DNA from: an uncultured Pelagibacteraceae bacterium
GTDB taxonomy: Bacteria; Pseudomonadota; Alphaproteobacteria; Pelagibacterales; Pelagibacteraceae
Assembly (NCBI GenBank): GCA_902573705.1
Contig: CACGKR010000007.1
Location: 1 to 37,234 of the forward strand
Direction of reading: 5' to 3'
DNA length: 37,234 bases
The notes beneath the pieces are model-generated. The model saw only the letters and a program-made list of their open reading frames with translations. It was not told the origin of the DNA and ran no database searches. Positions 27,524-37,234 of the stretch are shown one piece after another. Every line of letters starts with the position of its first letter. Positions within the stretch are counted from its first letter, which is position 1. The position numbers and the translations under genes are program-made.

Positions 27524-28147
27524 ATGAAATCTAAAATTTGTGGAATATCTGACATCAAAACTTTAAAATATATTACCAGTCACTCATTTCCACCAAAATT
27601 TATTGGATTTATAGTAAATTATATAAAATCAAAACGATATGTAAGTCAAAAAAATTTAAATGAATTACTCAAAATTGATAAAAAAAATTCCTTTTATGTA
27701 GCAGTCCTAGTAAAGCCAGATAAAGATGATTTAGAAAAAATAAAAGATTTACCTTTTGATTATTATCAACTTTACGACTGTAATCCCTCAGAGGCCTTAT
27801 CTATTAAAAAATTATACAAGAAAAAAATAATAATAGCACTATCTATAGAAAAAGCTGATGATGTTAAAAAATATAAGCTATTTGAGAATATTGCAGATAT
27901 CTATTTATTTGATAGCAAAGGTTACGAAAAAAGTATGTCTTTCAAGCATACTTTGTTAAAAAATATTAAATTTGATAAAGAGGTAATGCTTGCTGGAGAT
28001 ATTAAAATAAATGATAATTTTGAAAATTTTAAAAAGATAGCTAATATTATTGATATCTCTGGGGGTCTAGAAACTGCTGGACTGAAAGATATTTCCAAAA
28101 TAGAACATTTCTTAAAAAAAATAAAAATTTTAAATAATGAAACTTAA
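27524..28147 (+). CDS. trpF: Phosphoribosylanthranilate isomerase
   Basis: 207 aa; KICGI N-terminus, KSKRYVS, LAGDIKINDN, DISGGLETAGLKD; upstream of trpB. Confidence 0.9.
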   Translation: MKSKICGISDIKTLKYITSHSFPPKFIGFIVNYIKSKRYVSQKNLNELLKIDKKNSFYVAVLVKPDKDDLEKIKDLPFDYYQLYDCNPSEALSIKKLYKKKIIIALSIEKADDVKKYKLFENIADIYLFDSKGYEKSMSFKHTLLKNIKFDKEVMLAGDIKINDNFENFKKIANIIDISGGLETAGLKDISKIEHFLKKIKILNNET

Positions 28148-29366
28148 AAAAAATATTCCTTTAATAGATCAACATGATAAGCATGGTTTTTGGGGTAAAA
28201 AATTTGGTGGAAGTTTTATTCCTGAAACATTAAAAAAACCAGTAGAAGACTTAACAAGAGAATTTAAAAAATTAAGAAAAAATAAAAAATTTATCAAAAA
28301 AAGAGATTATTATTTCAAAAATTATATAGGCTCACCTACATCCTTTATCAAACTAGAGCAGTTAACTAATGAATTAGGTGGAGCACAAATCTGGGCAAAA
28401 GTAGTTTCAGAAGCTAATGGAGGTGCCCATAAGATTTATAATGCAACAGTTCATGCATTAATTTGCAAGTCTATGGGGAAAAAATATATTGTTGGTGACA
28501 CGGGTGCAGGTTATGCAGGAAAAATGTTGAGCATGGCAGCTAAAAAATTTGGCCTTAAGTGTAAAATATTTATGGGAGCTAAAGATATAAAAAGGCAAAA
28601 ACCAAATTGCGATGCGATGAGAAGAAATGGTGCTGAAATTGTACCCGTATATTCTGGAAGTCAAACTTTAGTGGATGCAGTGAGTGAATGTATGCGATAT
28701 TGGGTTTCAAATTGTGATAATACACACATGTGTGTGGGCTCCACAGTAGGACCAAATATATTTGTAAAAATTTGTGGTTGGAGTACTGCTCAAATTTCAA
28801 GAGAATTAAAATTACAATTAAAAAAAGAATTTAAAAAGATTCCTAATAAGATAAAATTAATTAATTGCGTTGGTGGTGGAAGTTCTGCATATGGTTTTTG
28901 GAGTGAATTTATAGACTTTAATAAAAAACAAATTGAACTAATTGGCGTTGAAGCTGGTGGTCCTAAAAATTCCAAATTACATGCAGCACCTTTAAGCAGA
29001 AATGCTAAGATTGGAATTTTACATGGTGCAGCTTCTTATGTTTGTCAAAATAATGAAGGGCAAATCAAAAAAACAGAATCGATTAGTGCAGGATTAGATT
29101 ATCCAGGGGTGAGTCCAATTCATTGTTATTTAAAAGATACTAAAAGAGCGAGGTATACCTATGCAACTGATGAAAGTGCACTAGAAGCTTACAAAATAGT
29201 TACGCGGCTTGAAAAAATCAATCCAAGTTTAGAACCAAGTCATGCATTCGCAGAAGCAATTAGGATCGCACCAAGATTGAGTAAAGATACAATAATAATT
29301 GTCAACTCATGTGGAGATGCAAAAAAAGATAGGGATATTTTAAAAGAAAGATTGGAGAAAAATTAA
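28137..29366 (+). CDS. trpB: Tryptophan synthase beta chain
   Basis: 409 aa; GGAHKIYNA (PLP Lys), GDTGAGYAGKMLS, CVGGGSSAYG. Confidence 0.95.
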   Translation: MKLKKNIPLIDQHDKHGFWGKKFGGSFIPETLKKPVEDLTREFKKLRKNKKFIKKRDYYFKNYIGSPTSFIKLEQLTNELGGAQIWAKVVSEANGGAHKIYNATVHALICKSMGKKYIVGDTGAGYAGKMLSMAAKKFGLKCKIFMGAKDIKRQKPNCDAMRRNGAEIVPVYSGSQTLVDAVSECMRYWVSNCDNTHMCVGSTVGPNIFVKICGWSTAQISRELKLQLKKEFKKIPNKIKLINCVGGGSSAYGFWSEFIDFNKKQIELIGVEAGGPKNSKLHAAPLSRNAKIGILHGAASYVCQNNEGQIKKTESISAGLDYPGVSPIHCYLKDTKRARYTYATDESALEAYKIVTRLEKINPSLEPSHAFAEAIRIAPRLSKDTIIIVNSCGDAKKDRDILKERLEKN

Positions 29367-30169
29367 TGGGAAATTCTTTAATTGATCAATCTTTTAAAAA
29401 TGCAAAGAAAGAGAATAGACCTGCTTTACTCACATACACTGTAGCTGGAGATAACTCAATAAAAAAATCTTTTGAAATTTTAAAATCTATTTCAGAGTAT
29501 GCAGATATATGCGAATTAGGATTTCCTCATAACACCCCGATTGCTGATGGTGGCCAAATTCAAACTAGTGCTTATCGGGCTATCAAGAACGGTATCAAAA
29601 TAAATGATGTTTTTTCAATAGTTAAAAAATTTAAAATAATTAAGAAGAATAAAGCAATTATTTTAATGGGATATTATAATATGATCTATCAATATAATGA
29701 GAATAAATTTATTAAAAAATGCAAACAATCAAAAGTTGATGGATTAATTGTTGTAGATTTACCTTATCCTGAAAATAAAAATTTTGCATTAAAATGTAAA
29801 AAATATAAAATAAATTTTATTCAACTTTTATCACCCACCACTTCTAAAAAAAGACAAAAAAAGATCATTAAAGACTCTCATGATATGATTTATTATATTA
29901 GTATGCTCTCTACCACTGGTGGAGAATTGAAAGTTTCACCAAGAAAAATAATGCGAGAATACCAAAAAATAAAAAAACAAAATAAATCAAAAAATGTTGT
30001 GATTGGTTTTGGTATTACAGAAAAGACTATCAGTTTACTAAAAAAAGCTGACGGATTAGTTGTTGGAAGTGCAATTTGCAAAGAAATAAATAATTCTATA
30101 AAAAGAGGACAAAATGCTGTCACAAATGTTACTAATGTTGTTAGGAAATTAAAAAATAAAATAAAATGA
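29366..30169 (+). CDS. trpA: Tryptophan synthase alpha chain
   Basis: 267 aa; ELGFPHNTPIADGGQIQ, GLIVVDLPYPE, GFGITEKT. Confidence 0.95.
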   Translation: MGNSLIDQSFKNAKKENRPALLTYTVAGDNSIKKSFEILKSISEYADICELGFPHNTPIADGGQIQTSAYRAIKNGIKINDVFSIVKKFKIIKKNKAIILMGYYNMIYQYNENKFIKKCKQSKVDGLIVVDLPYPENKNFALKCKKYKINFIQLLSPTTSKKRQKKIIKDSHDMIYYISMLSTTGGELKVSPRKIMREYQKIKKQNKSKNVVIGFGITEKTISLLKKADGLVVGSAICKEINNSIKRGQNAVTNVTNVVRKLKNKIK

Positions 30170-31095
30170 ACTGGATTACAAAAATAATCAAAGCCGGAGA
30201 AAAAATTAAATCTGCTATCCACAAAAGAGCAACTAAAGAAGATATAGCTAATAGTGATTGGACTTCATGCTGTAGAGGTCCAATTTTAAAAAAAAACTTA
30301 GAAGAAAATCTCTGGGTCTGTCCTGATTGTAATAAACATCATCGTATAAACCCAAGGCAAAGATTTGATACATTATTTGGAAAAAATAATTATGAAGTAT
30401 TTAAAACTCCAATTCCAAAGGATGACCCACTAAATTGGACAGACTCTAAATCATATAAAGATAGATTAAAGAGTGCTAGAAAAAAAACTGATATGGATTG
30501 TGGAATGATGGTTGTATCTGGATTAATAGATAATATTAAAATCACTGCGGTGGCATCTGATTTTGATTTTTTAGGCGCTTCAATGGCAGCAGCAGAAGGT
30601 GAAGCTTTTTTATATGGTATTCAATACGCAATAGAAAATAAGACGCCATTCTTGTGTGTAAGTGCAGGGGGAGGTATGAGAATGATGGAAAGTTTGATTT
30701 CTTTATCTCAAATGACAAGAACAACATTGGCTATAAATGAACTTAAAAATAATAATCTTCCCTATTTGGTTTGTATTACTGATCCAACTGCTGGAGGAAT
30801 AACTGCATCGTATGCAATGCTGGGGGATATTCATATAGCAGAACCGGGTGCTTTAATTGCATTTGCTGGAGCTAGAGTAATCCAAGGAACAGTTAAAGAA
30901 GAATTACCAGAGGGTTTTCAAAAAAGTGAATATGTTGAAAAAACAGGTTTCGTAGATTTAATAGTTGAAAGAAAAGAGCTTTCTAAGAAAATTGGAACCT
31001 TATTATCAATTATGTTGAAGAAAAATTCTGTTATAAGCACTGAAGAAAATGAAACTACAGAAAATACTCAGTCGCTTTCAAAAGTTGCATCCTAA
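30166..31095 (+). CDS. accD: Acetyl-CoA carboxylase carboxyltransferase beta subunit
   Basis: 309 aa; VCPDCNKHHRINPRQRF, SAGGGMRMMES, TDPTAGGITASYAMLGD. Confidence 0.95.
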   Translation: MNWITKIIKAGEKIKSAIHKRATKEDIANSDWTSCCRGPILKKNLEENLWVCPDCNKHHRINPRQRFDTLFGKNNYEVFKTPIPKDDPLNWTDSKSYKDRLKSARKKTDMDCGMMVVSGLIDNIKITAVASDFDFLGASMAAAEGEAFLYGIQYAIENKTPFLCVSAGGGMRMMESLISLSQMTRTTLAINELKNNNLPYLVCITDPTAGGITASYAMLGDIHIAEPGALIAFAGARVIQGTVKEELPEGFQKSEYVEKTGFVDLIVERKELSKKIGTLLSIMLKKNSVISTEENETTENTQSLSKVAS

Positions 31096-32314
31096 GGAAA
31101 TAGATTTAAGTTTAGATCGAATTAAAGATCTTTGTAAAAAATTAGGTAATCCACAGGATAATATAAAAGTTATATCAGTTGTTGGAACTAATGGAAAAAA
31201 CTCAACAATCCAAGCTTGTTTTTCGATTATGAAAGAGGCAGATATTAAATGCAATGTTTATACAAGCCCTCATATTCAAAAAATAAATGAAAGATTTGTT
31301 TTTAATAACAAACAATTAGAGGATGATGAATTAGCATCACTATTTGAAGAGGTTGAAAGAGTCAATGAGAGTCGGCCAATTACCTATTTTGAAATATTAA
31401 CTGCCTGCTACTTTTATAAAGCTGCTCAATACCCAGACAATATTAACCTTGTGGAAGCTGGATTATTTCACCGGTTTGATGCAACAAACATTTTTAAAAA
31501 AAACTTAGCAAGTATTACGTGCTCAATATCTATAGATCATCTTGATTGGCTCAAGAAAGGTGAACAGACAATTGAAAAAATTATTTTTGAAAAAACATCT
31601 ACACTTTTAGAATCAAATATTATTGTTGCTAAACAAAGTACAAAAGAGACAATGGACTGTATTAAAAAAACTATTTCTCAAAATCCATCAAATAAATTAT
31701 TTTTTGATGACGACTTTAGTTTCTCAGTTAATGAGAATGACTTCTTTTTTTATGAAGATAAATTTGGTGGATTGAAGCTTCCAATGCCTAATGTTCTTGG
31801 TCAATTTCAATTAGAAAATATATCAACTGCAATAGCAACCTTAAGAACATTAAATATTGGTATTAAAGATGAACATATTCAAAGAGGAATTACAAAAATA
31901 TCTAGCTTTGTAAGACTTCAAGAAATTAAATCTGGCAAATTAAAAGAACTAGTTAAAAACAACAAATTAATAATTGATGGGAGCCATAATGAAGATGGTG
32001 CTAGGGCATTAAATGAATATCTTCAAAGCTTGAATTGTAACAAGCATGTTATTATTTCAATGATGGCAAACAAGCAGCATGAAAAGTATATTGGTCACTT
32101 TAAAAATGTTTCATCAATAACTACCATAGATCTAAAAACTCAACCAAATTCTATTAGTGGTAAAGATTTAAAAGAAAAATTTAAAAATATGCCTAATGTT
32201 CAATATCAACCAAGTATCGAACAGGCTATCAAATCAATAAATTTAAAAGAAGGTGATCTTTTGTTAATTACAGGATCTTTATATGGGGCCGCTGAAGTAT
32301 TAAGTTTAAATTAA
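31049..32314 (+). CDS. folC: Dihydrofolate/folylpolyglutamate synthase
   Basis: 421 aa; LHPKEIDLSLDRI, VVGTNGKNST, DATN, IDGSHNEDGARALNEYL; overlaps accD 3' end. Confidence 0.9.
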   Translation: MKLQKILSRFQKLHPKEIDLSLDRIKDLCKKLGNPQDNIKVISVVGTNGKNSTIQACFSIMKEADIKCNVYTSPHIQKINERFVFNNKQLEDDELASLFEEVERVNESRPITYFEILTACYFYKAAQYPDNINLVEAGLFHRFDATNIFKKNLASITCSISIDHLDWLKKGEQTIEKIIFEKTSTLLESNIIVAKQSTKETMDCIKKTISQNPSNKLFFDDDFSFSVNENDFFFYEDKFGGLKLPMPNVLGQFQLENISTAIATLRTLNIGIKDEHIQRGITKISSFVRLQEIKSGKLKELVKNNKLIIDGSHNEDGARALNEYLQSLNCNKHVIISMMANKQHEKYIGHFKNVSSITTIDLKTQPNSISGKDLKEKFKNMPNVQYQPSIEQAIKSINLKEGDLLLITGSLYGAAEVLSLN

Positions 32315-32628
32315 ATATTTTTTTCTAAAAACTCTTTCATATTGCTCTCTGGAACTCCGCCAACTTTTCTATCTACCTCGACACCTTTTTTATATATAAT
32401 TACAGTTGGTACTCCTCTGATTCCTGCAGCACTACCAGTGTTAATCCCGCCATCTTCAATATCTGCATAATAAAAACAAGCTTTATCTTTATATTCTCCA
32501 GCTAACTTATCCATGACAGGCTTAAGTGCTTTGCAAGGTCCACACCATGCAGCACTGAATTGTATAACTGATACATTTTCATTTTTAATTTTATTTTCAA
32601 AATCTTCGTCTTTAAAATCTATAAGCAT
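32311..32628 (-). CDS. trxA: Thioredoxin
   Basis: 105 aa; FSAAWCGPCKALKPV, IRGVPTVIIYKKG. Confidence 0.95.
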   Translation of the reverse strand: MLIDFKDEDFENKIKNENVSVIQFSAAWCGPCKALKPVMDKLAGEYKDKACFYYADIEDGGINTGSAAGIRGVPTVIIYKKGVEVDRKVGGVPESNMKEFLEKNI

Positions 32629-32694: not shown

Positions 32695-34143
32695 TTATGC
32701 GTCTGAATATTTTTGCTCTAAATTCATGACATAATCGTTGATTCCATCTAAAAATTTAAGTTTTTCATCAACTGTTTTAAATGAAAACATTTTGTCATCA
32801 TTTTCTCTAATTTCATCACATTCTGAATAAAAAGCTGAAACCGTCCACCATTTTTCTTTATTGGTACTTAAAATTCTAGATGCTATTCTTCTTTTAATTT
32901 TCTTGTGAATTTCTTTTGGTAAAATTTCTGGAGCTTCATTGTATATGAGGCTATGACCAAAGGTGACTAGTCTATCATCTTTAAACTTATCTAATAAAGA
33001 TAATCTTTCTTTCCAATCTGAAGAATGAAATTTTTCAAATAATGGAACATCTTTATTGAATGTATCAAAACCTCCAGAATAGATTGTCTCCTCAGGTTCA
33101 GCATCTTCTTGCGATGCTGTTTCCATTTTATCCTCTGCTGCTTCTTTCAATATATTACATATATCTTGAGAAAATTTTTCATTAGATTTCATCAATTCCG
33201 CTCTTTTATTTAATAAATTAATTCCAATTTTTTTATAAGGATCTATTTTTAAGCCTAAACTTTTATCTAAAATTATTGGAGCTTTGTTGGATTTTATTGT
33301 TTTATAAAAACGAGGTGATTTTCTCATTTCTTTTTTTAAATCTTGGTAATTCAATTTTTGTAATTCTTCAATATTTGCCGATAAATTTACTACTTGCCCC
33401 CATTTATAAACTGGATGCATACATGAGTTTGGGTGTAATGGAGCAACTAAAAATAAATAATTTTTACCAAAAAAATTTTCATTAATAGTAAACATTTTTT
33501 CTTGTTTTATTAAATTTTCAACGACAACTTTACTTTTAGTCTTTAAATATTCGTGCCACAAATCAGGTTGTTTGTTTTTTAATAGACCTAAGACTTTAAC
33601 AGTTAATTCAGTGTCAAAAAGAGCTCCATGGGCTCCTGAAGAGTCAAAGCCATTAAGTCTTGCTAATGACTCTAATTTCATAGATTTATTTCCTTTAAGG
33701 TTGAGCTCAGTTTTTAAAACATTTTCATCAATAGCAAATGCTGCTTTAATCATGTTTAACGCATCATGTCTTGCATTGCCCTCTGTATTAATAAGATATG
33801 GTTTTCTTAATGATTTAAAAAACTCTCTCCTAAGAATTTCATCATCGAAACCGACCGAGCTGAATCCCATAAAAGTTGCGGGAGACCATTCGCGAAATTT
33901 TTTTTCTACTTGAGCAATCATTTGGTAATGACTTAAGTTGCCTTTAGTAATCAAATCAACGTTTGACTTGTTGATACATAAAGCAGTAGCAGATGGAACT
34001 CGATCTTGTGGAATTCTACATCTTGCATTAAATCTTTCTTTTTCATTAAAATTTTCATCTAATAAGATTGCTCCAATCTCAATCATAGTGGCCCAATCAA
34101 GTTGGGCCGAATCTGTCTCAATATCCCAAACTACATAATTCAA
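32695..34143 (-). CDS. sbcB: Exodeoxyribonuclease I-like DEDDh exonuclease
   Basis: 482 aa; VVWDIETDSAQLDWATMIEIGAI, GFSSVGFDDEILRREFF, GAHGALFDTELTVKVL, ExoI-type WVAPLHP-like segment (FLVAPLHPNSC). Confidence 0.85.
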   Translation of the reverse strand: MNYVVWDIETDSAQLDWATMIEIGAILLDENFNEKERFNARCRIPQDRVPSATALCINKSNVDLITKGNLSHYQMIAQVEKKFREWSPATFMGFSSVGFDDEILRREFFKSLRKPYLINTEGNARHDALNMIKAAFAIDENVLKTELNLKGNKSMKLESLARLNGFDSSGAHGALFDTELTVKVLGLLKNKQPDLWHEYLKTKSKVVVENLIKQEKMFTINENFFGKNYLFLVAPLHPNSCMHPVYKWGQVVNLSANIEELQKLNYQDLKKEMRKSPRFYKTIKSNKAPIILDKSLGLKIDPYKKIGINLLNKRAELMKSNEKFSQDICNILKEAAEDKMETASQEDAEPEETIYSGGFDTFNKDVPLFEKFHSSDWKERLSLLDKFKDDRLVTFGHSLIYNEAPEILPKEIHKKIKRRIASRILSTNKEKWWTVSAFYSECDEIRENDDKMFSFKTVDEKLKFLDGINDYVMNLEQKYSDA

Positions 34144-34895
34144 TTTGCCATCCTTTGTGAGTAAAATTGTTCAACTTTTTCTAAAAATTGGTTTTGATAA
34201 TTTATTAATCTTTCACCTCTAACCATAAATCTTTGAAAAATATTATCCTTAGTACATAAAAGGATTGCCACTTGAGTAATATTCGATCCATGAACTTTAT
34301 TGTGGGCTAATGAATATGCTGCGCACTGTAGATAATAATCCTCAATCCACTCATCTTTTTTTGGTTTGTTGCTTTGTTTAAAGTCTATGATCGTTTCTTT
34401 ATTTTCGTAAATACCAATACAATCTGCAGCACCTGCATATTTTCCCGGGTAATATAAAGTTGCTTCACATCCCCAGATTTCACTTAATTTATCTCTTAAT
34501 CCGTTTTCTATAATTTGATCTGCCATCATTTTTTCACGAGTGTTGTCTCCAAGTAAATCCATATTTAATTTTCCAAGCAAAAATTTTTCTAAATAATCAT
34601 GCATAGAACTTCCACGACTTGTTGCTTCTCTTGAAATAATTTCAGCTTGTTTATGACCAACTCTGTTTTTCCATTCAAGTAGTTTTGCTTTTTTTTCTTC
34701 AGACTCGGTTGCTTTTAAAATTGTTGTAACTGATGGAAGATTTTCCTCATTAACTGAATAATGTCTTGAACCGTGTACAATTGATCTTGTAGATTTCGGA
34801 TAAATAAATTTATTATTCCACTGCATGTGATTTCTTATAATCGGTATTTTTTGAAAAAAGAAATTAATTTTTGAACTGTTTATTTCTTTCAACAA
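34140..34895 (-). CDS. PD-(D/E)XK superfamily nuclease (RecB-nuclease/MGME1-like)
   Basis: GKYAGAADCIGIYENKETIIDFKQSNKPKKDEWIEDYYLQCAAYSLAH: D-Xn-D-X-K signature plus QxxxY. Start uncertain; internal Met at 34826 avoids rmuC overlap. Confidence 0.75.
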   Translation of the reverse strand: MLKEINSSKINFFFQKIPIIRNHMQWNNKFIYPKSTRSIVHGSRHYSVNEENLPSVTTILKATESEEKKAKLLEWKNRVGHKQAEIISREATSRGSSMHDYLEKFLLGKLNMDLLGDNTREKMMADQIIENGLRDKLSEIWGCEATLYYPGKYAGAADCIGIYENKETIIDFKQSNKPKKDEWIEDYYLQCAAYSLAHNKVHGSNITQVAILLCTKDNIFQRFMVRGERLINYQNQFLEKVEQFYSQRMAN

Positions 34896-35955
34896 ATTTT
34901 TCTACATTTTCTGTTTTAACAGCTTTCTCAACCTGTTCGGGATCTTTTATATTTTCTAAAGTTCTGTTAATTGATCTTGCATCAGTACCAAACTTATCTA
35001 CCACACTCATAGCTTCCTCTAATTTTTTTCTAAGTGTAATAATATTATCAAAATGTTTTCCAAATCTGGTAGTGATAGTTTTGAGATGATTATATATTTC
35101 TGTAGCTCCTTTTTGAACTTTAAGAGATTGAAAACCCATATGTAAGGATTGCAAATAAGCTGAAAGAGTATTTGGGCCACAAATTACTATTTTGTATTTT
35201 TTCATTAATTCTTGGGTTAATAATTCTTTAGTGCTTGGATCCTGATATTCAGTTAATTCTTTATAAAGACTTTCTGTGGGCGCATATACTATTGCAAAAT
35301 CAGTCGTCTTGGGTGGAACAATATATTTTTCCTTAACACTTTTTGCTTTAGCCTTAAATGCACTTGCTAATTTTGTTCTAGCATCATCAACAGCTTTTTT
35401 ATCATCTGCATCGTAAGCATCTGTGATTGCTTTAAATTTTTCTACTGGAAAATGAGAGTCTACTGGAACCAAAATATCTCCTTGTAGCTTGATTGCAAAT
35501 TCAACATTTTCACTAGTATCTTCTTTCATCTTTACATTTGTTATAAATTGAGATGCTGGCAATAAATCTTTGATTAGTGCATCTAAAGAATACTCAGCAA
35601 GAGTTCCATATTTTTTAACACCTGCTAGAATTTTAGTAATTCCTTCTTGGCTTTGATTCAGTAATTGTACTTGCTGATTAAAATTCCCTACTTTTTCATC
35701 CACCTTAGTTAAAGCTTCTGTCATGTCTTTAGTAACTCCAGTTGAAAGAGCATTGAATGAAGTAGACATTGAGCCTAGAGATGTATTGATTGTGGTATTT
35801 AGACTATCTTTTAGTCGAACTATTTCGCTATTTAAATTTGCTATTTCTTCAACCTCTTTGCTATCACTCCTTGGTTTTGATTTTATATTTAAATATAAAG
35901 TTGCTAGAGTTGCTACTAGCAGTAAAATTAAGATAGTTAATAAAATTGTGTCCAT
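34864..35955 (-). CDS. rmuC: DNA recombination protein RmuC
   Basis: 363 aa; N-terminal TM, coiled coil, LLPASQFITNVKMKEDTSENVEFAIKLQGDILVPVDSHFPVEKF, IVICGPNTLSAYLQSLHMGFQSL. Confidence 0.92.
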   Translation of the reverse strand: MDTILLTILILLLVATLATLYLNIKSKPRSDSKEVEEIANLNSEIVRLKDSLNTTINTSLGSMSTSFNALSTGVTKDMTEALTKVDEKVGNFNQQVQLLNQSQEGITKILAGVKKYGTLAEYSLDALIKDLLPASQFITNVKMKEDTSENVEFAIKLQGDILVPVDSHFPVEKFKAITDAYDADDKKAVDDARTKLASAFKAKAKSVKEKYIVPPKTTDFAIVYAPTESLYKELTEYQDPSTKELLTQELMKKYKIVICGPNTLSAYLQSLHMGFQSLKVQKGATEIYNHLKTITTRFGKHFDNIITLRKKLEEAMSVVDKFGTDARSINRTLENIKDPEQVEKAVKTENVEKFVERNKQFKN

Positions 35956-35985: not shown

Positions 35986-36117
35986 ATGGAATTATATCTA
36001 ATTTTAAAAATTATATTTGTAATAGGAGTTTTTGTAGCTTTTTATGCAATATTAAAAAATTTAGATATTATCAAAATAATCCTCGTTTATTTTAAGGATA
36101 AATTATTTGGAAAGTAA
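35986..36117 (+). CDS. Putative 43-aa single-pass membrane protein
   Basis: ATG at 35986, TAA at 36115-36117, AAGG 7 nt upstream; MELYLILKIIFVIGVFVAFYAILKNLDIIKIILVYFKDKLFGK. Below the ORF-track length cutoff. Confidence 0.5.
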   Translation: MELYLILKIIFVIGVFVAFYAILKNLDIIKIILVYFKDKLFGK

Positions 36118-36789
36118 TTGAATTAATTTCTTTAATCCTTTTTTTTTTGAATTTTTCTTTGATGTAAAAATACATGCCTGAGATTTAAGAATTTCACCAT
36201 CTTTTAAAACTCTCAAATTATTAGCTTTTAAAGTTTCACCTGTAGAACTGATATCAGTGATTAATTCTGCTGATCCTGTAAAAGGATAAGCTTCCGTAGC
36301 CCCAAGACTTTCAACCAATCTAAATTGAGTGACACCTTTTGAAAATAAGAACTCTTTTGTTAAATTTGGATATTTAGTTGCAACTCTTAATCTTTTTTTC
36401 TTTTTATCTCTAAGTTCAAATGCAATTTCCTCAAGATCAGCTATTGTTTGGACGTCAATCCAAGGGTCAGGTATAGCGACAACTAAATCAGCTTTTCCAA
36501 AACTTAACTTTTTATTTACATTAATTTTCTTTTGAATATTAATTTCACTTTCTTTGAACAGATCAAACCCTGAAAAGCCAATATCCAAAGAATTGTCACC
36601 GAGTCTTTCTATTATTTCTCTGGCATGTAGATATAATATTTTTATATTTTTTTTACTTTTGATTGAACCAATTAAATCTCTCTCTCCTCTTTCTGAAATA
36701 AGATTTAATTTTTTCTTTTTAAAAATCTTTAAAACATCTTTTTTTAATCTACCTTTACTTGGAATTCCTATGTTTATTATATTTTCCAT
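36103..36789 (-). CDS. hisG: ATP phosphoribosyltransferase catalytic subunit (short form)
   Basis: 228 aa; IGIPSKGRLKKD, DIGFSGFDLF, LVESLGATEAYPFTGSAELITDISSTGETL. Confidence 0.95.
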   Translation of the reverse strand: MENIINIGIPSKGRLKKDVLKIFKKKKLNLISERGERDLIGSIKSKKNIKILYLHAREIIERLGDNSLDIGFSGFDLFKESEINIQKKINVNKKLSFGKADLVVAIPDPWIDVQTIADLEEIAFELRDKKKKRLRVATKYPNLTKEFLFSKGVTQFRLVESLGATEAYPFTGSAELITDISSTGETLKANNLRVLKDGEILKSQACIFTSKKNSKKKGLKKLIQLLSK

Positions 36790-36791
36790 GA

Positions 36792-37234
36792 TTAGTAATT
36801 TAAGTTTAAAGCAGCTCCTACAGCTGGGACTTGAGTTTTAGAACCTAGATCAGAGATTAATAGATCGTACCTGCCACCATTAATAATATTCTTAATCTTA
36901 TTGTTAGATTTAATATCAATTTTAAAAACCATTCCTGTATAATATTCAAGTTGCCTTCCAAAGGAAGTTGAAAAAATTACGTTTAGTTTTGATAGTTTGT
37001 TGTTTGAAATTGGAAAATATTTTTGATCTACCAACAAATTAATTTGGTATTTTTTAAAAAATTTATTTAATTCTTTTGCAGCTTTATTTATTGGACATTT
37101 AATTTTTAAAAACTCTTTAATAATTTTAGATACATTTTTCCCCTTACTTGCACGTCTTGGGTCTTTAATTTTATTATCAAACCTGCTTAAAATTTCTTCG
37201 ATAGATCTACCAGCTATGATTGATGATTTATCCT
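36792..37234 (-). CDS. hisZ: ATP phosphoribosyltransferase regulatory subunit, N-terminus beyond window edge
   Basis: Open frame continues upstream of the track Met to the edge (...GRSIEEILSRFDNKIKDPRRASKGK...); FGRQLEYYTGMVFKI and GGRYDLL. Confidence 0.9.
   Translation of the reverse strand, partial: DKSSIIAGRSIEEILSRFDNKIKDPRRASKGKNVSKIIKEFLKIKCPINKAAKELNKFFKKYQINLLVDQKYFPISNNKLSKLNVIFSTSFGRQLEYYTGMVFKIDIKSNNKIKNIINGGRYDLLISDLGSKTQVPAVGAALNLNY

Follow-up and report, generated by a model that had tools for sequence, protein, structure and literature searches.

Can a row of nuclease genes stand in for AddAB, the RecBCD-type helicase-nuclease of Alphaproteobacteria? The question is raised by a stretch of 37,234 nucleotides from an uncultured Pelagibacteraceae bacterium (hereafter the window). 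In it, rmuC, a gene for a PD-(D/E)XK nuclease (PDX) and exoI were annotated as co-directional on the minus strand beside trxA-folC-accD-trpAB; coordinates and Pfam assignments agree with this arrangement, and the 4-nt overlap between exoI and PDX is real (Table 1). The start of PDX, in turn, had to be moved. The 251-aa frame originally assigned to it begins at a TTG codon (34895) inside rmuC that is not conserved, and the alignment of every full-length relative starts at about the ATG at 34826, so that PDX is a protein of 228 aa whose gene begins 37 nt after rmuC. Because the assembly that contains the window (Pelagibacterales, 759 kb) is only 62.6% complete, gene absence was judged in relatives. 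A search of the open-access literature, narrower in scope than a full literature search, found no paper on the rmuC-PDX-exoI locus.

Table 1. Features of the nuclease locus and its flanks, in positions of the window.
Feature	Position	Strand	Description and basis
rmuC	34864..35955	(-)	363 aa, hydrophobic N-terminal helix; Pfam RmuC 2e-49; motif altered to E..D-S-H
PDX (PD-(D/E)XK nuclease, MGME1-like, viral ancestry)	34140..34826	(-)	228 aa, ATG 34826
exoI-like DEDDh 3'-5' exonuclease	32695..34143	(-)	482 aa, TTG start, 4-nt overlap with PDX
PDX-exoI swap cassette	32695..34826	(-)	DNA identity profile against G110; about 2.1 kb
trxA	32311..32628	(-)	3' neighbour; anchors the slot once held by addAB; Pfam thioredoxin 5e-22; synteny
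trpF-trpB-trpA-accD-folC	27524..32314	(+)	Convergent anchor, common to addAB-bearing Alphaproteobacteria; Pfam, synteny
hisG and hisZ/hisS-like	36103..37232	(-)	5' flank of the slot in the window's genus; Pfam, synteny

The first-pass annotation had placed addAB of many alphaproteobacteria beside trxA-folC-accD-trpAB, and this synteny is real in the genomes examined. AddAB genomes usually show the order tsaE-amgK-murU-addB-addA-trxA, and in five of them the convergent genes folC-accD-trpA-trpB, usually with trpF, follow addB-addA-trxA. In Pelagibacterales, rmuC-(PDX)-exoI lies next to trxA in the addB-addA position, with the order exoI-rmuC in the second family. Profile searches detected AddB in none of 197 Pelagibacterales genomes, and AddA never exceeded its cut-off in the same set; the weak AddA matches, none above 59 bits, lie mostly in frames of about 680-755 aa, a length typical of UvrD-type helicases. 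Across the rest of the Alphaproteobacteria, with the window's genome counted in, AddB was over the cut-off in 42 of 58 genomes. The two gene sets thus share the slot tsaE-amgK-murU-[ ]-trxA><folC-accD-trpAB and are both made up of DNA-end processing genes, but ExoI and RmuC are unrelated to AddA and AddB in domain make-up, and the standard Pelagibacterales set consists of separate single-strand exonucleases without a helicase. No intact addAB accompanies the row in these genomes. The earlier proposal that the nuclease set replaces or supplements AddAB is therefore retained in its first half; given the absence of AddAB, supplementation fits less well. The accessible part of a study of SAR11 reports loss of RecBCD and of the RecF pathway (PMC12374537), and that part mentions neither RecJ nor AddAB nor this locus.

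Comparable slot contents are seen in genomes from other orders. Among 57 class members outside Pelagibacterales, ExoI of this kind occurs in four of the eight AddB-negative genomes and in none of the 49 AddB-positive ones (Fisher 1.8e-4). Two of the four carriers have exoI exactly, and alone, in the slot: G204, with amgK-murU-exoI-trxA><folC-accD-trpA-trpB, keeps both immediate neighbours of addBA, and G245 reads tsaE-exoI-trxA><folC-accD-trp. Most G204-like genomes are single-cell genomes of marine origin that carry the label Alphaproteobacteria. In the ExoI tree, the four AddB-negative genomes occupy differing positions, although several branches are long and their placement is unsure; this distribution makes it likely that exoI was acquired more than once among AddB-negative lineages. 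Elsewhere, in AddB-negative G219, exoI directly follows recR (L282, 8136-10161).

ExoI of the window carries the RNase_T (2.3e-9) and Exonuc_X-T_C (6.5e-11) domains and the DEDDh site of Exonuclease I (SbcB), which it matches in the PDB at 1e-16; the DEDDh residues are invariant among relatives wherever the sequence is present. With 126.8 bits against a cut-off of 260 for the NCBIfam SbcB equivalog, the protein is to be called ExoI-like rather than an SbcB equivalog. Unlike E. coli SbcB, the window type lies on a separate branch, closer to the reverse transcriptase (RT)-associated SbcB model of PADLOC, which is its best fit in that collection (RTasSbcB 5.9e-69). The PADLOC DRT models with RT-associated SbcB and RmuC have both nuclease types in common with the locus, but a reverse transcriptase (PF00078) was found in none of 97 Pelagibacterales genomes, and a DRT system was rejected. 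ExoI itself is present in 144 of 149 good Pelagibacterales genomes, from all ten genera.

RmuC has the PF02646 domain (168.7 bits against a 26-bit cut-off). The lysine of its PD-(D/E)XK motif is replaced by histidine, giving E..D-S-H in 74 of 76 sequences, where the divergent RmuCs of other Pelagibacterales retain D-S-K; nuclease activity of the window-type protein appears doubtful on this ground. The first-pass annotation had neither this altered active site nor the swap cassette and the RecJ link described below. The predicted model has a pLDDT of 67, and a fold search with it yielded no match below 0.001. RmuC of the Shield system (ShdA) shares the RmuC domain and the hydrophobic N-terminus, but the window type differs in its exchanged lysine and in its repair-type locus. 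An RmuC-family gene, in very divergent forms, adjoins ExoI in every genus for which the locus was read. As judged from the phyletic profile, the three genes do stand together in most relatives, but the triad is not the conserved unit: the RmuC-ExoI pair extends across the order, to which PDX was added at the level of one genus.

PDX was annotated as having an intact D...D-x-K motif and as resembling MGME1, and both statements withstood closer analysis. The protein matches human MGME1 in the PDB by sequence (1.4e-8), and its predicted model (pLDDT 94) matches by Foldseek (1.2e-12, TM 0.75/0.86). The catalytic residues H180, E223, D238, D251 and K253 of MGME1 all have counterparts in H76, E121, D135, D148 and K150 of PDX, and these five, together with Q167, are invariant in 89 of 89 relatives. 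MGME1 degrades single-stranded DNA from both ends, and faster from the 5' end (PMC11551736). PDX is MGME1-like in modelled fold and in active site, and single-strand exonuclease activity is predicted for it.

PDX also matches the phage exonuclease family phrog_298 (1e-49), and it shares the MGME1 / phrog_298 fold and the catalytic H, E, D, D and K. Its relatives include 980 phage records, among them the Pelagibacter phages HTVC023P and HTVC027P at 44-46% identity, and at least 593 stretches of viral contigs at up to 56% identity. Unlike these phage exonucleases, PDX is chromosomal, is enclosed in the rmuC-exoI row of the host and belongs to a host-only clade: in a tree built from 25 host sequences and 66 viral ones, all host copies fall on one side of a single branch (100/99), as expected from a single capture. 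PDX is found in 104 of the 149 good genomes and is practically confined to the window's genus; the sole match outside it (G087, family f2) is probable contamination, on a 3.4-kb contig with a genus-type trxA. On phylogenetic grounds PDX thus descends from a viral exonuclease that was captured once in the genus and put between rmuC and exoI. The phage ancestry suggested by the first-pass annotation concerns PDX only. For exoI and rmuC, with just two and four weak phage records, respectively, it was rejected, and no exoI was seen near PDX in 80 viral contigs.

Within the genus, PDX and ExoI move as one, whereas rmuC, only 37 nt from PDX, follows the flanking genes and the genome-wide phylogeny. 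For 43 dereplicated loci, the partial Mantel correlation is 0.76 between PDX and ExoI, 0.03 between rmuC and PDX, and -0.10 between rmuC and ExoI. ExoI was compared in 256 genome pairs whose flanks are similar, and its identity is either 40-50% (101 pairs) or at least 70% (155 pairs), with none in between. The border is visible in the DNA: compared with G110, the window is mostly 0.89-1.00 identical across hisZ, hisG and rmuC (0.85 in one 150-base interval); at the rmuC/PDX junction identity drops to about 0.5-0.68, and in trxA it recovers to 0.80. PDX and ExoI types agree in 84 of 86 classed rows, a count in which three unclassed loci are taken as agreeing (the tree set comprises 85 loci) and whose exceptions are one mixed D/C locus and one locus without a call. 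The window's cassette is of type A; residues 86, 91, 92, 216 and 219 of PDX separate types A/C from B/D. The marker trees cover two chromosomal regions, the second being 20 kb around uvrD, remote from the locus and analysed in 20 genomes. The Spearman correlation of this region is 0.74-0.81 with rmuC, trxA and accD, against 0.10 with PDX and 0.11 with ExoI, and its tree does not allow type B to form one clade (AU p 8e-41). The cassette is accordingly the part that moves, and these comparisons indicate that PDX-ExoI is exchanged between lineages as one unit with sharp borders. As a separate observation, trxA occurs at the same site in two very different forms within the genus, about 31-37% versus 64-93% identical to that of the window (L066, L067, L069 and others).

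The presence of RecJ follows the cassette. RecJ was detected in almost every family member from other genera and in the majority of second-family genomes, but within the window's genus it was seen in only 23 genomes, including the window's own (G000:C5:3996-5594). It accompanies 20 of 22 A/C cassettes and none of 64 B/D cassettes; the corresponding Fisher p of 1e-17 takes no account of relatedness and is not to be read literally. On the PDX or ExoI tree, RecJ presence requires one change, or three when the two A/C genomes in which RecJ was not found (G122 and G028, an assembly gap or a true exception) are included, compared with 7-10 changes on the trees of hisG, rmuC, trxA, folC, accD, trpA and trpB. 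On the 20-genome uvrD-region tree, RecJ needs four changes and the cassette class itself five. Independent class switches gave four concordant cases, none against and one without difference (sign p 0.125, too few for significance), and independent pairs on the uvrD region gave three, none and one. In complete genomes RecJ lies about 500 kb from the cassette (for example, 518 kb versus 1015 kb in G005). These data suggest that RecJ presence tracks the PDX-ExoI type, not the neighbouring genes. Two genomes, G103 and G184, tell against the proposed link, as they have neither PDX nor RecJ, though G184 carries in the slot a different set of nucleases that includes a Dna2-like helicase-nuclease.

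ExoI is a 3'-5' single-strand DNA exonuclease, and RecJ, which works beside ExoI when RecBCD is absent, is a 5'-3' one. On the basis of gene content and phylogeny, we infer as the probable function that a helicase-free set of single-strand exonucleases took the place of AddAB and that one type of PDX made RecJ dispensable. Where a resecting helicase-nuclease is lacking, single-strand exonucleases would process DNA ends as well as strands that have been unwound or displaced; ExoI would act from 3' ends, and PDX would work chiefly from 5' ends, the job of RecJ. As the standard locus is devoid of a helicase, it cannot by itself process blunt ends in the way AddAB does; a helicase encoded elsewhere would open the duplex, and RecOR-type proteins would load RecA. 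PDX of the B/D type may do the 5' work well enough for RecJ to be lost, and the A/C types, the window's included, would coexist with RecJ. Window-type RmuC, with its hydrophobic N-terminus and altered active site, is probably a DNA-binding or recruiting partner that assists without cutting. A more far-reaching version, to which we give somewhat less than an even chance, treats the MGME1-type exonuclease of viral origin, which was captured a single time and joined to ExoI in the slot left by AddAB, as a transferable 'repair allele': its B/D form would have taken over the role of RecJ, and exchange of the 2.1-kb cassette between strains would decide between retention and loss of an unlinked core repair gene.

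The gene contents of the slot also bear on a rather unlikely alternative, that the locus is an anti-phage module in which PDX and ExoI, with RmuC, degrade incoming or replicating phage DNA. The cassette would then diversify and spread under phage selection, which could account for its swapping and for alleles that are bimodal between close relatives. The fit of ExoI to the RT-associated SbcB model points in the same direction, as do the RmuC effector of Shield (PMC10270631), the C5 methylase or GHKL-Z1 genes in some slots and the plasmid relatives of exoI, which have HTH-ImmA genes and, in most cases, ThiF/multiubiquitin genes as neighbours. Yet ExoI, unlike defence genes, is near-universal in the order (144 of 149 genomes) and lies in the addAB slot, exclusive with AddAB; the reverse transcriptase is missing from all 97 genomes, and the coupling to RecJ points to repair. 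That AddAB was lost by streamlining unrelated to a generic single-strand exonuclease set, the site beside trxA being permissive for insertion, we regard as quite unlikely: the slot does take unrelated genes in some genomes, but exoI occupies it in several lineages, solely in AddB-negative genomes, and in G204 both immediate neighbours of addBA are kept. The very high recombination described for SAR11 (PMC12374537) would allow PDX, ExoI and RecJ to follow the true species tree vertically while the flanking and uvrD-region genes recombined. This is very unlikely in view of the match of the unlinked uvrD region to rmuC, trxA and accD instead of PDX and ExoI, and its rejection of one type-B clade. 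Viral relatives of up to 56% identity could mark PDX as a prophage remnant, a phage gene in transit without a host role, but such a reading is barely conceivable for a gene whose host copies form one clade, which stands beside exoI in 104 of 149 good genomes with an invariant active site, and near whose viral relatives exoI was not seen in 80 viral contigs.

In a minority of genomes the slot is filled differently. Some have a divergent exoI in inverted orientation, accompanied by RmuC, a gene of S24-peptidase type and a Dna2-like protein with RNase_H_2, AAA_11 and AAA_12 domains; others have gained genes for a C5 methylase, GHKL-Z1 or DUF2130. In view of these contents, defence may be a competing or further function. 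In four loci (L083, L086, L193 and L195), exoI and RmuC share the slot with a Dna2-like nuclease-helicase of about 1,120 aa, and L195 encodes a second PD-(D/E)XK protein of 258 aa. A defence-like pair of GHKL ATPase and Z1-domain genes adjoins PDX in L096 (8889-13310). The plasmid exoI relatives of Rhizobiales/Rhodobacterales (L286-L289) are preceded by HTH and ImmA/IrrE genes, in most cases next to ThiF/multiubiquitin genes, and possibly represent an uncharacterised defence module.

The locus is a concrete candidate for DNA-end processing in SAR11, whose cells are among the most abundant and most recombining in the ocean and are reported to lack RecBCD and the RecF pathway (PMC12374537). A complex helicase-nuclease gave way to simple single-strand exonucleases, in the same slot and in more than one lineage, and a viral nuclease appears to have become part of core repair. 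Which nucleases are interchangeable is a testable prediction that follows from the link between RecJ and a two-gene cassette open to swapping.
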